Under the pieces are notes generated by a model. The model was not told the origin of the DNA. It was given only the letters and a program-made list of their open reading frames with translations, and did not search any database. From positions 1 to 64,000 of the forward strand of contig JAGHQL010000126.1 of the NCBI GenBank assembly GCA_020080175.1: a stretch of 64,000 bases of DNA, read 5' to 3'. The translations under genes and the position numbers were made by a program. The DNA comes from Glutinoglossum americanum (taxonomy: Eukaryota; Ascomycota; Geoglossomycetes; Geoglossales; Geoglossaceae). Below, piece by piece: positions 8,765-21,368 of this stretch. How positions within the stretch are numbered: the first letter of the stretch is position 1; every line of letters begins with the position of its first letter.

Positions 8765-11157
8765 CTAGTTCCCGGCTGCGAGCACCTTTTGAATCTCTTC
8801 TAAATAACTGGACCTAAAATATGGAATTAGATGTTGTCAATGAATGCTGTTCACTGCTTCTCACGAATACTCACCTGCCTTAATGACCTCAGGAGTCGCC
8901 TCGTCTGAATACTTCTTGAAATTTTCTACAAAGAGCGTGCCTAATTTGGTCACCTCTTCCTTGAAGTCCGACTCTCCTGTCGTCCATGATTTCTTAGGAT
9001 TGAGGAGCTCGGACGGGACACCGGTGACCGCAGTTGGAACAAAGAGGTTGAAGGTGTCATAGACCTCGTACTCCGCTTTAGCTAGCTCGCCGGAGTGGAT
9101 TGCATCCAGTATTGCGCGAGTGTACTTTAGTCTATCCCAGATGTCAGTAAGCTTAATAAAAAAAGCCTCCAGGTAGGAACTCACGGGCAACGCTTGCCAC
9201 CTTTGGTGGCGCCGGCACCCACCCAACCGGTGTTTAAAAGCCATGCGTTGGCTTTGTGATGGGCAATCTTGTCTGCTAACATCTTTGCATAGCGCATGGG
9301 ATGTAGAGCCAAAAACGGTTGGGCGAAGCATGACGAAAAGGTTGCTTGTGGCTCAGTAACGCCGTCTTCCGTGCCAGCCATTTTTGAGGTGTATCCCGAA
9401 ATGAAATGGAACATGGTTTGATCGGTCGTGAGCTTGGAGATTGGTGGAAGGACACCTCTAGCATCGCAGGTAAGGAGAATGATGTTGCTGGGGTGATTCA
9501 TGGACGTGCAAGGTATTTTAGCGTTATTGATGTACTCGATGGGGTAGGCACTGTGAAAGAATGGCATTAGAAGCTTCATAAGATCTTCCATATGCGTCTC
9601 GGCTTACCATCTAGTATTCTCGGTGAGTGTTGCGTCATCGTAATCGACTACGCGAGTCTCTGGGTTGAAAACCACATTTTCAAGGACGGAACCGAAGCGA
9701 ATGGCGCCGTGAATGTCAGGCTCTTTCTCGGCGGAAAGTCCTATACACTTGGCGTAGCACTAGATTGATGTTAGCTGAAGACACACTGTATGGAGCTGGT
9801 ATTGCACGTACGCCGCCCTCAATATTGAAGATCCCGCGATCGCTCCAACAGTGCTCATCATCACCGATGAGCGCGCGATTAGGGTCTGCCGATAGAGTTG
9901 TTTTCCCCGTTCCTGAAAGACCGAAAAAGACGGTAACATCACCATTCTTACCCTCGTTCGCGGACGAGTGTAGTGTTAGGACTCCGTGATTTACCGGCAT
10001 CTCGTAAAAGAGAACCGTAAAGACGCCTTTCTTCATCTCTCCAGCATACTCTGTTCCTAGGATGACCATCTCTTTCTCGGCGAAGTTTATGGATACTGAA
10101 GTTGCAGAGGTCATGCCCTCCGTGTACCTGTTGGCTGGGAACGTCCCGGCATTGTATATCACATAGTCGGGGTGAAAATGTTCGAGCTCTTCTGGAGTCG
10201 GCCGGATAAGCATGTTTCGCATGAAAAGAGCGTGGTAGGCTCTGGCGCAAACAACTCGAACGTTAATTCTGTAGCGTTCATCCCATCCCGCAAAACCATC
10301 GATGACGTAAATTCTGTTTCTCGTGTTGAGGTAGTCAACAGCGCGCTCTCTGTTGATTCGCCAAACCTGTGATGTGTTAGCGAGGCGAATTTTCTGGAAA
10401 AGTTGGGCTTGGTGGCTTTTCCCCGCATTTTGAATAGCCGATGGCGGGGAATCCAACAACCGGAACAATGGGATTTTCTGTCGATGAGCGACGATGCAGT
10501 TTCAGGAAGACAGGAGGCAGAAGCGCGTGACATTAACCATACGAATAAAATCAAATTACCTCAGGGCTCATAGGCTTGTTGACAGGTCCCCACCAGACAT
10601 TTTTCTCGGATCCTTCTTCTTTCACAATTCGTTTGTCCAATGGCGACCGGCCGGTCTTTGCGCCGGAGTATGCCGTGAGTGCACCTGACGACGTGATAGC
10701 CGAACCGGTCTCATACACGAGAGCGTCTTCGTACAGTGCAGCAACAGAAGGATTGGGAACCTGTTCACCAAGGAGTCAGTGTCGCTATATTGTAGTAGTT
10801 CGTAATTTGCTTACAATGGCAACACGATCGTAGTCAATGTTTGCTTTCTCATGGAGCTCCTCTTCAATCTCAGTGTGTTCTTTGGAGGGCCTACCCAAGA
10901 CGAGGAAAAACTCTAATTAGCTAAAAGCTTCAAGACACCCGGGCGGTGGCATAGGCGGTCGGGTAGAAGCGGACTTACACCACACCGCTAGGATGGAGGG
11001 CGGTCTTGTTGACGCTGGAAACCATGTCGCGGAGCTTGGAGGGTGGTAGAGTGGAGATATTTCTAGAGTATAGCTGACGAGCGAAGGACGATGAGCCTGG
11101 GCCAGGGGAAGAGTTTCGGAAGTTGGGGGATGACTGTTTTATAGTGTCAGAGGCCAT
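8765..11157 (-). CDS. PCK1: Phosphoenolpyruvate carboxykinase (ATP), gluconeogenesis
   Basis: The enzyme converts oxaloacetate and ATP to PEP, ADP and CO2, the committed cytosolic step of gluconeogenesis (acuF in Aspergillus). Exons join to give [21 protein letters not shown], then the second-exon block ending NKPMSPE, then [16 protein letters not shown]. The P-loop [14 protein letters not shown] lies near 9890, followed by GDDEHCWSD and the GGCYAKC-type join across an intron at about 9760-9810. The 3' exons read [18 protein letters not shown] and [16 protein letters not shown]. About eight exons are visible. The start at 11157 (MASDTIKQ, strong Kozak with A at -3 and G at +4) gives a 44-residue leader; the conserved [14 protein letters not shown] start lies at 11025. 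The last intron is uncertain: splicing at TTATTTAG gives a tail ending VLAAGN at 8765, whereas a nearer acceptor would end the protein a few codons earlier. Confidence 0.93.
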
Positions 11158-20289: not shown

Positions 20290-21368
20290 ATGAGCAGCCC
20301 AAAGCGAAGGATCGAGACGGATGTAAGTCAAGTCTCAAAACACGACACCGTTGCAAGCCCTCGGCGCTGACCGGACACCTATCATGAGTAGGTTATGAAG
20401 TAAGTTCCTCTTGACAGAGTATCTACGGTCACCTATAGGCTAACAGCTTATTAGGATGTACGTTTCGGCTGAAGTCATCCAGCTCTCTGAAGATACTGAC
20501 GAAAATAGGCTCATGAGTGACTATGAAGTCACACTCGTGAATGATAATAGTAAGTGAGCCTCACACCGCCTGGGAAGTGCTGGGCGCACGGCGCCGAAAC
20601 TATCTGACCTCTGGGCAGTGTATGTTACGGAAAGTCCTTGTTATCCTACATGACCCGCTGTGAATAGTTTCTCAATAGTTAACCGTCCTGAAGGCAAGAA
20701 TTCTATGTGCGCTTCAAGGGCCCTGAAGAAAGTTAGTGGATCGCAACGTAGCCATGGATATACGCACTGCTAATGGGAAATTGCTTGCAGCCCCATTTTC
20801 CGGTGGCCTATGGAAGGTGCACGTCGAACTACCAGATCAGTACCCGTACAAGAGCCCCAGCATCGGCTTTGTGAACCGTATTTTCCACCCCAACATTGAC
20901 GAACTGTATGCGCTTCCCTCTCACTTCATTGGAGCTAAACTAACCATACAGCTCTGGCTCGGTCTGCCTTGACGTCATCAACCAAACTTGGTCTCCGATG
21001 TTCGACATGATCAATATCTTTGAGGTATTTCTGCCTCAGCTCCTCAGGTACCCAAACCCTACAGACCCTCTGAACGGAGAAGCGGCCGCTCTTCTTATGC
21101 GGGAGCCAAAGGGCTATGAAGCGAAAGTCAAAGGTTAGTCCCGACTATAGCGAGGTTCGCCCGCGGGCATTTGAGCACGCCAATTGGTTCTACTCTTATT
21201 GTGGTGGAAATAGCTAATTATACAACGCTTATAGAGTATGTATCAAAATATGCCACGAAGGATGCTGCAGATGAGGCAGGGGACGATAGTGAATCAGACG
21301 ACGAGATGAGTTCGGTGGGCAGTTTTGAGTCTGGAGACGAGGAGCCAGCTGGGACAATGGAAGTCTGA
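20290..21368 (+). CDS. UBC8: Ubiquitin-conjugating enzyme E2, UBC8/UBE2H type, with micro-exons
   Basis: This E2 works with the GID/CTLH ligase; in yeast it drives turnover of gluconeogenic enzymes. The 184-residue protein reads [61 protein letters not shown] (catalytic Cys) and ends in an acidic tail. Nine exons fit the frame exactly (555 nt): 20290-20322, 20392-20399 (8 nt, GTTATGAA), 20455-20457 (3 nt, GAT), 20509-20549, 20619 (1 nt, T), 20694-20731, 20791-20905, 20952-21133, 21235-21368. Every intron has a GT donor (GTAAGT, GTACGT, GTATGT and similar), an AG acceptor and a CTRAY-like branch point 8-25 nt before it. Omitting the tiny exons breaks or shortens segments that match yeast Ubc8 (DVMKLLMSD, DSMQEF). 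The structure is inferred from conservation and splice signals, not from transcripts. Confidence 0.93.

Follow-up and report, generated by a model that had tools for sequence, protein, structure and literature searches.

Exons of a single base are already known, and the plant case to which the initial annotation referred is that of APC11, where one is found in Arabidopsis and most land plants (Guo and Liu 2015, PMC4674806; Yu et al. 2022, PMC8831610). In the available passages of these papers, APC11 resembles the UBC8 gene described here in having a single base between AG and GT that is essential for the frame, missed by annotation, conserved in a large clade and part of a ubiquitin-system gene. 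It differs in being a plant gene, in that the base is an A and in having been tested by RT-PCR and reporters; neighboring exons of 8 and 3 nt are a feature of UBC8 and are unmentioned for APC11 in those passages (PMC4674806). Replacing the A with T or G left splicing undisturbed, and deleting it gave a cDNA lacking the base (PMC4674806), results that fit the intron-defined, stepwise splicing proposed below for UBC8. The same authors favor this combined model as the most plausible, and cite potato invertase, in which the second intron is removed first (PMC4674806).

To APC11 we can add two other genes. The one-base exon of VPS55 in land plants (PMC8831610) is, according to the passages available, conserved and absent from annotations as in UBC8, but it lies in a plant gene and is alternatively included in some lineages. 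A one-base exon was reported in February 2026 for CYP621A of Fusarium (Nelson and Syed 2026, PMC12940212), and its authors describe it as the first for a fungal gene. As far as the accessible text goes, CYP621A is, like UBC8, a mis-annotated fungal nuclear gene, with AG-G-GT inside an apparent 139-nt intron of F. graminearum, and its exon is backed by 18 public reads from two species (PMC12940212). It concerns one genus, a rarely expressed P450 and one micro-exon, whereas UBC8 is a conserved ubiquitin-conjugating enzyme (E2) with three micro-exons and an apparently subphylum-wide distribution. Stwintrons of Pezizomycotina genes, which the available parts of PMC9024468 and other papers describe as removed by two standard splicing reactions in succession at a single site, are like UBC8 in their two successive reactions but leave no exon behind, whereas UBC8 would have to keep one base. 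A one-base exon has also been described in the mitochondrial cox1 gene of placozoans, and the portion available of a 2024 Trichoderma paper calls functional micro-exons previously undescribed in filamentous fungi. Among the matches listed in our literature search (titles and abstract starts, with most subscription journals outside its coverage), there was no report of a micro-exon in UBC8/UBE2H. The only match listed for UBC8, introns and filamentous fungi was an Alternaria genome paper (PMC5007530), and the term-matched passages of PMC5677156 (Fusarium introns) and PMC13149111 (a splicing review) held no fungal micro-exon case. Against this background, the UBC8 case is notable for its depth, its clustering and the frequency of database error.

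The window, a stretch of 64,000 nt, is contig 31 of the Glutinoglossum americanum genome (25.77 Mb in 317 contigs). The gene within it is read as follows.

20290..20322, + strand: exon 1, 33 nt, 11 residues
20323..20391, + strand: intron 1, 69 nt, phase 0, GTAAGT, CTGAC, TAG
20392..20399, + strand: micro-exon 2, 8 nt, GTTATGAA, from the path search and shuffles
20400..20454, + strand: intron 2, 55 nt, phase 2, GTAAGT, CTAAC, TAG
20455..20457, + strand: micro-exon 3, 3 nt, GAT, from the path search; skipping it gives VMKLMSD
20458..20508, + strand: intron 3, 51 nt, phase 2, GTACGT, CTGAC, TAG
20509..20549, + strand: exon 4, 41 nt, 3' end ...AATA
20550..20618, + strand: intron 4, 69 nt, phase 1, GTAAGT, CTGAC, CAG
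20619, + strand: micro-exon 5, 1 nt, T, the middle base of the Met codon in NDN-M-QEF
20620..20693, + strand: intron 5, 74 nt, phase 2, GTATGT, TTAAC, AAG
20694..20731, + strand: exon 6, 38 nt, 5' start G-CAA-GAA-TTC
20732..20790, + strand: intron 6, 59 nt, phase 1
20791..20905, + strand: exon 7, 115 nt, mostly within the UQ_con match
20906..20951, + strand: intron 7, 46 nt, phase 2
20952..21133, + strand: exon 8, 182 nt, with SGSVCLDV, its Cys where E2 enzymes usually have the active site
21134..21234, + strand: intron 8, 101 nt, phase 1
21235..21368, + strand: exon 9, 134 nt, acidic tail and stop

Re-reading the sequence returned every exon coordinate of the initial annotation, including GTTATGAA at 20392-20399, GAT at 20455-20457 and T at 20619, and the order CTGAC-CTCTGGGCAG-T-GTATGT at the one-base exon. 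Its exon total of exactly 555 nt and its intron range of 46-101 nt were recomputed with the same result. Its claim of a branch-like motif in every intron also held, with CTRAY in seven introns and TTAAC in intron 5. Joined and translated, the nine exons, stop included, encode a 184-aa protein. By sequence comparison, the gene is a UBC8/UBE2H ubiquitin-conjugating enzyme, the identity that the initial annotation had assigned: yeast Ubc8 was the best solved-structure match (8pmq_E, E 1.8e-70), followed by human UBE2H (8pjn_2, E 1.2e-66), and the UQ_con domain (PF00179) scored 133.6 bits in the spliced protein against a cut-off of 27. The alignment with yeast Ubc8 was ungapped across both micro-exon regions. 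The spliced translation shows an HPN motif, a Cys in SGSVCLDV, which we take to be the E2 active-site residue, and an acidic tail. In yeast and human, Ubc8/UBE2H partners the GID/CTLH ligase. The protein matched no NCBIfam family, and Rfam (gathering score) and ARAGORN (bacterial code) gave no match in the whole window.

Other genes of the same window include APG12 (PF04110; 17641-18795, + strand) and RPN7 (PF10602; 50787-51629, + strand), which are ubiquitin-like or proteasome genes. About 10 kb from UBC8, on the - strand at 9719-10501, lies an exon of PEPCK (PF01293). The GID ligase of yeast, for which Ubc8 is the E2, destroys gluconeogenic enzymes, and the proximity of PEPCK to UBC8 is at least a curious coincidence.

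To judge the splice signals, we used a simple spliced aligner to place eight E2 proteins on 12 of 15 E2 regions from the same genome. This yardstick comprised 23 introns of 50-146 nt, with G at donor position +5 in 20, CTRAY in 19 and YAG in 19. The UBC8 introns all start with GTNNG, and thus have G at +5 in 8/8, with CTRAY in 7/8 and a YAG end in 7/8; on these signals they look like ordinary introns. The weakest signals of all eight introns are those of intron 5 (TTAAC and AAG). No internal exon of 8 nt or less was found among the aligned E2 paralogues, the smallest being 24 and 30 nt (L019 and L018), although this is no census of micro-exons because the codon-based aligner misses 1- and 2-nt exons that fall within a codon. 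At the T, a single base stands between an AG and a GT, with a complete intron on each side. In 20550-20693, AGNGT occurs once, at this T, and AGGT is absent.

We then enumerated every path of GT-AG introns (40-200 nt) through 20290-20731 that keeps the length and has at most three mismatches to the expected 41 residues. There were three such solutions, all of which contain the T, and only one was exact, namely that of the initial annotation. As the target was that annotation's own reading, the search shows that the path is unique rather than that it is correct. The path search and translations also agree with the initial claim that all three tiny exons are required for the conserved E2 start and NDNMQEF. 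Without the T, the translation stops after 68 codons, and without the 8-mer it stops after 15; the T is therefore needed for the reading frame. Skipping GAT leaves an in-frame protein one residue shorter, which is a possible second isoform. The T must derive from inside the interval because a G follows AATA and a G also precedes GCAAG. A single intron of any splice-site type at this place was rejected, as neither flank supplies the T for NDNMQEF; two ordinary introns explain it. In 20,000 dinucleotide shuffles of 20550-20693 with the first six and last three bases fixed, AG-T-GT with both introns of at least 40 nt arose 1567 times, 122 times with a donor-like hexamer in addition, and twice with a branch motif and YAG as well, by criteria that, for both intervals, were written after the gene had been seen. 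Among shuffles of 20323-20508, 0/20,000 offered a single micro-exon or a pair that encodes V-M-K-M or V-M-K-L, as the 8- and 3-nt pair does.

The comparison with relatives was strongly supportive of the initial annotation; it covers 254 listed UBC8 proteins, and is thus one of proteins, not of genomes. Three protein searches returned 5781, 5620 and 6173 matches, and the best 120 of each gave the 254 distinct proteins, which we sorted into 66 short-contig proteins, 67 annotated proteins of other taxa and 121 annotated Pezizomycotina proteins. Sorting by organism was our own assignment, with eleven taxa looked up. The other-taxon set holds 8 Saccharomycotina, 4 Taphrinomycotina, 3 Basidiomycota, 3 plant-labeled entries and 49 others, nearly all of them other fungi. 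One of the plant-labeled entries, P0212 (Anthurium amnicola), has a Mortierella-like sequence, 94% identical to the Gamsiella query over 86% of the query, and is probably a fungal contaminant. The short-contig set came from the sources jgi, lgn and ena plus one merc entry, with longest contigs of 0.9-7.3 kb (no figure for merc). We took these proteins to be transcript-derived because the contigs are short and the frame runs without introns. Judged by the first 108 residues from VELP, the nearest annotated relative of the 66 was a Pezizomycotina protein for 53 and one of another taxon for 10, with 3 ties. Among the matches listed, the best score belonged to the oak-labeled P0001 (302 aa, 61%), and the next named Pezizomycotina were Geoglossum umbratile (86%), Watsoniomyces obsoletus of the Lichinomycetes (91%), Peltula (89%) and Psora (89%); Tuber indicum (92%) scored slightly lower. 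These matches place the window in the Pezizomycotina. A related-locus search with P0002 for the DNA of relatives returned three distant prokaryotic genome loci, no viral locus and no fungus, so that intron positions in relatives are read from scars in their proteins.

By a strict pattern for the T codon (NDN, then M, then Q or S, then E), 66/66 of the listed short-contig proteins and 66/67 of the other-taxon proteins were intact, as against 16/121 of the annotated Pezizomycotina proteins. The other-taxon exception was P0001, which reads L-N-E-F. P0035 and P0109 read NDNSMQEF and were scored as broken, and P0120 is among the 16 intact. These also include both recognized Lichinomycete entries (Watsoniomyces and Peltula) and both Gaeumannomyces entries, and may reflect correct annotation or intron loss. 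As control junctions in the same 121 listed proteins, 119 kept exon 6/7 intact and 116 kept exon 7/8 intact; the exon 8/9 pattern proved too stringent for use as a control (112/121 Pezizomycotina, 55/66 short-contig and 35/67 other-taxon). The first site (DVMKMLMSD and accepted variants) was intact, among the matches listed, in 47/121 Pezizomycotina, 64/66 short-contig and 65/67 other-taxon proteins, and the two short-contig proteins without it begin downstream of it. In other species, the 8- and 3-nt exons are therefore less well supported than the T.

The way in which the proteins are broken can be compared with the misreadings expected of UBC8 in this genome. Translation that continues into intron 4 reads NDNSK and then a stop, and translation that continues into intron 5 reads NDNMYV...; a splice to the following AG produces NDNKFYV, retention of intron 3 produces VMKMYV, and loss of GAT produces the VMKLMSD already mentioned. 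Among the matches listed, the 105 broken Pezizomycotina proteins showed NDNS in 51 and NDNSK in 24, and M[YF] followed NDN in 10 annotated Pezizomycotina proteins. KF[YF]V was found in 11/121, VMKLMSD or VMRLMSD in 38/121 and VMKMY in 5/121. M-Y-V can be encoded only as ATG-TAY-GTN, which is A, T and then a GTAYGT donor. Many of the scars thus match what skipping these introns or reading through them yields in the G. americanum gene; the remainder fit no single simple error. In P0049, P0090 and P0116, the frame was read from M to R across the whole of the putative intron 5 (63, 75 and 60 nt).

The edges of the scars were also informative. NDN was kept in 100 of the 105 broken proteins, followed by S (51), T (13), K (13), M (12), R (8), N (2) or I (1), and QEF/SEF with YV/FV was kept in 90, preceded by R in 39. 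Among the matches listed, the residue after NDN can have a codon beginning with A in 100/100 (background 34% in intact proteins), and the residue before QEF/SEF can have a codon ending with G in 89/90 (background 70%), tallies that are not independent tests since the proteins are related. In the relatives too, an upstream exon with A as its last base thus seems to face a downstream exon with G as its first. A phase-1 end that faces a phase-2 start is one base short, so that annotators damage the protein to bridge the gap, and this mismatch is what a one-base exon repairs. Scarred and intact versions also occur as matched pairs that are identical from VELP to the end: annotated P0147 and short-contig P0140 of Ilyonectria (133/133), P0090 and P0007 of Aspergillus nanangensis (133/133), P0040 and P0010 of Penicillium chrysogenum (133/133), and P0065 and P0115 of Morchella importuna (132/132), the scarred protein being named first and the intact one being from a short contig in each pair.

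Two further features of the listed proteins were noted. Nine of the 66 short-contig proteins (P0063, P0076, P0088, P0102, P0103, P0115, P0140, P0189 and P0244) start just before, inside or after the array, with the letters MDVMK, MKML, MRLL, MKLL or MSDYEV. In these, upstream introns could have been retained and introns 4 and 5 removed, or the contigs could be cut. An insert between HPNIDE and SGSVC, at the exon 7/8 junction, was present in 5/121 (P0162, P0174, P0177, P0178 and P0179), and may be a similar misreading of a junction in some Sordariomycetes.

The interval around the T could be read differently. A single intron at 20550-20698 would dispense with the one-base exon and start exon 6 at AATTC, giving NDNKFYV and a protein of 182 aa. 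This product is in frame and open, and 11/121 of the listed annotated Pezizomycotina proteins are written in this way, but the form occurs in 0/66 short-contig and 0/67 other-taxon proteins among the matches listed. The AG used by this intron sits within the CAA-GAA codons for Q-E and is therefore present wherever Q-E is so encoded. Its length of 149 nt exceeds those of all 23 reference introns, and in P. chrysogenum the same later sequence carries KFYV in P0040 and MQEFYV in P0010. We consider this reading very improbable. Removal of the interval in two steps with nothing left behind, as a stwintron or through a zero-base recursive splice site, is suggested by the known stwintrons of Pezizomycotina, in the text available on them, and by the resemblance of the 144-nt interval, with its inner acceptor and donor, to one. 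Removing the whole of 20550-20693 however shifts the frame and brings a stop after 68 codons, so the T must stay in the product, and the AGGT of a zero-base recursive site does not occur there. Although the order of splicing events may resemble recursive splicing, we give this proposal almost no chance of being right.

It could also be that the one-base exon is real but private to the Glutinoglossum lineage, the scars elsewhere being other local annotation errors. The intron positions of relatives are read from protein scars, and the two recognized Lichinomycete entries are intact, both of which leave room for this. Against it, the T codon is broken in 105/121 listed Pezizomycotina proteins and in 1/67 of other taxa; the edges agree in nearly all cases with one exon that ends in A and another that starts with G, and NDNS (A-GT), NDNSK and M[YF] after NDN recur as counted above. 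An exon restricted to this lineage is thus highly unlikely. We have high confidence in the reading as a whole, in which UBC8 has micro-exons, is spliced stepwise by intron definition and carries an array ancestral to the Pezizomycotina.

Under this micro-exon reading, the 5' third of UBC8 would be cut by five short GT-AG introns into pieces that include exons of 8, 3 and 1 nt, which we infer to be included in the G. americanum mRNA. Exon definition would be impossible on one base, and the complete flanking introns would permit intron definition: each intron brings a donor, a branch motif and an acceptor of its own, and could therefore be recognized across itself rather than across an exon. Intron 4's acceptor and intron 5's donor overlap (AG-T-GT), so that the two could be assembled only in turn. 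Once the first intron was out, the T would become the end of an ordinary exon, and the second intron could then be removed. Intron definition with stepwise removal is most likely the mode of splicing. Intron 4 is somewhat the better candidate for being spliced before intron 5, because its GTAAGT...CTGAC...CAG is nearer the consensus than GTATGT...TTAAC...AAG.

The listed species with a scar at the T site come from the Pezizomycetes (Tuber, Morchella), Geoglossomycetes, Coniocybomycetes, Lecanoromycetes, Eurotiomycetes, Dothideomycetes, Leotiomycetes and Sordariomycetes, and none of the 67 listed other-taxon proteins has a T-site scar of the Pezizomycotina kind. The 8-3-1 array therefore appears to be common to the Pezizomycotina and not peculiar to the G. 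americanum genome. Together, the broken T codon in most listed Pezizomycotina proteins and the scars indicate that the array is very probably ancestral and widely mis-annotated. The simplest reading would be a single origin in the Pezizomycotina ancestor, with later losses or correct annotations. The divergence of the Pezizomycotina is several hundred million years old. The array would be retained because every base is needed for the conserved DVMKMLMSD and NDNMQEF. It is also conceivable, but in our view unlikely, that the array was fixed in the Pezizomycotina ancestor and kept for a function, with AG-T-GT forcing ordered, slow splicing that gates the output of UBC8 mRNA and with it the GID-type degradation of gluconeogenic enzymes.

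If the reading is right, this would be the most widely shared fungal one-base exon among those that our searches found, in a conserved regulatory enzyme, and 105/121 of the listed annotated Pezizomycotina UBC8 proteins would be wrong at the T codon. Whether or not a UBC8 model reads NDNMQEF would be a cheap test of a gene finder, and a codon-level comparison of annotated and transcript-like proteins, together with the bases implied by scar residues, could reveal more such exons. The mis-read arrangement of UBC8 is apparently common to molds, lichens, truffles and their relatives, and would offer a natural, replicated system, with laboratory organisms such as Aspergillus nidulans and Neurospora crassa, for studying how the spliceosome deals with exons that are too small for it to see.
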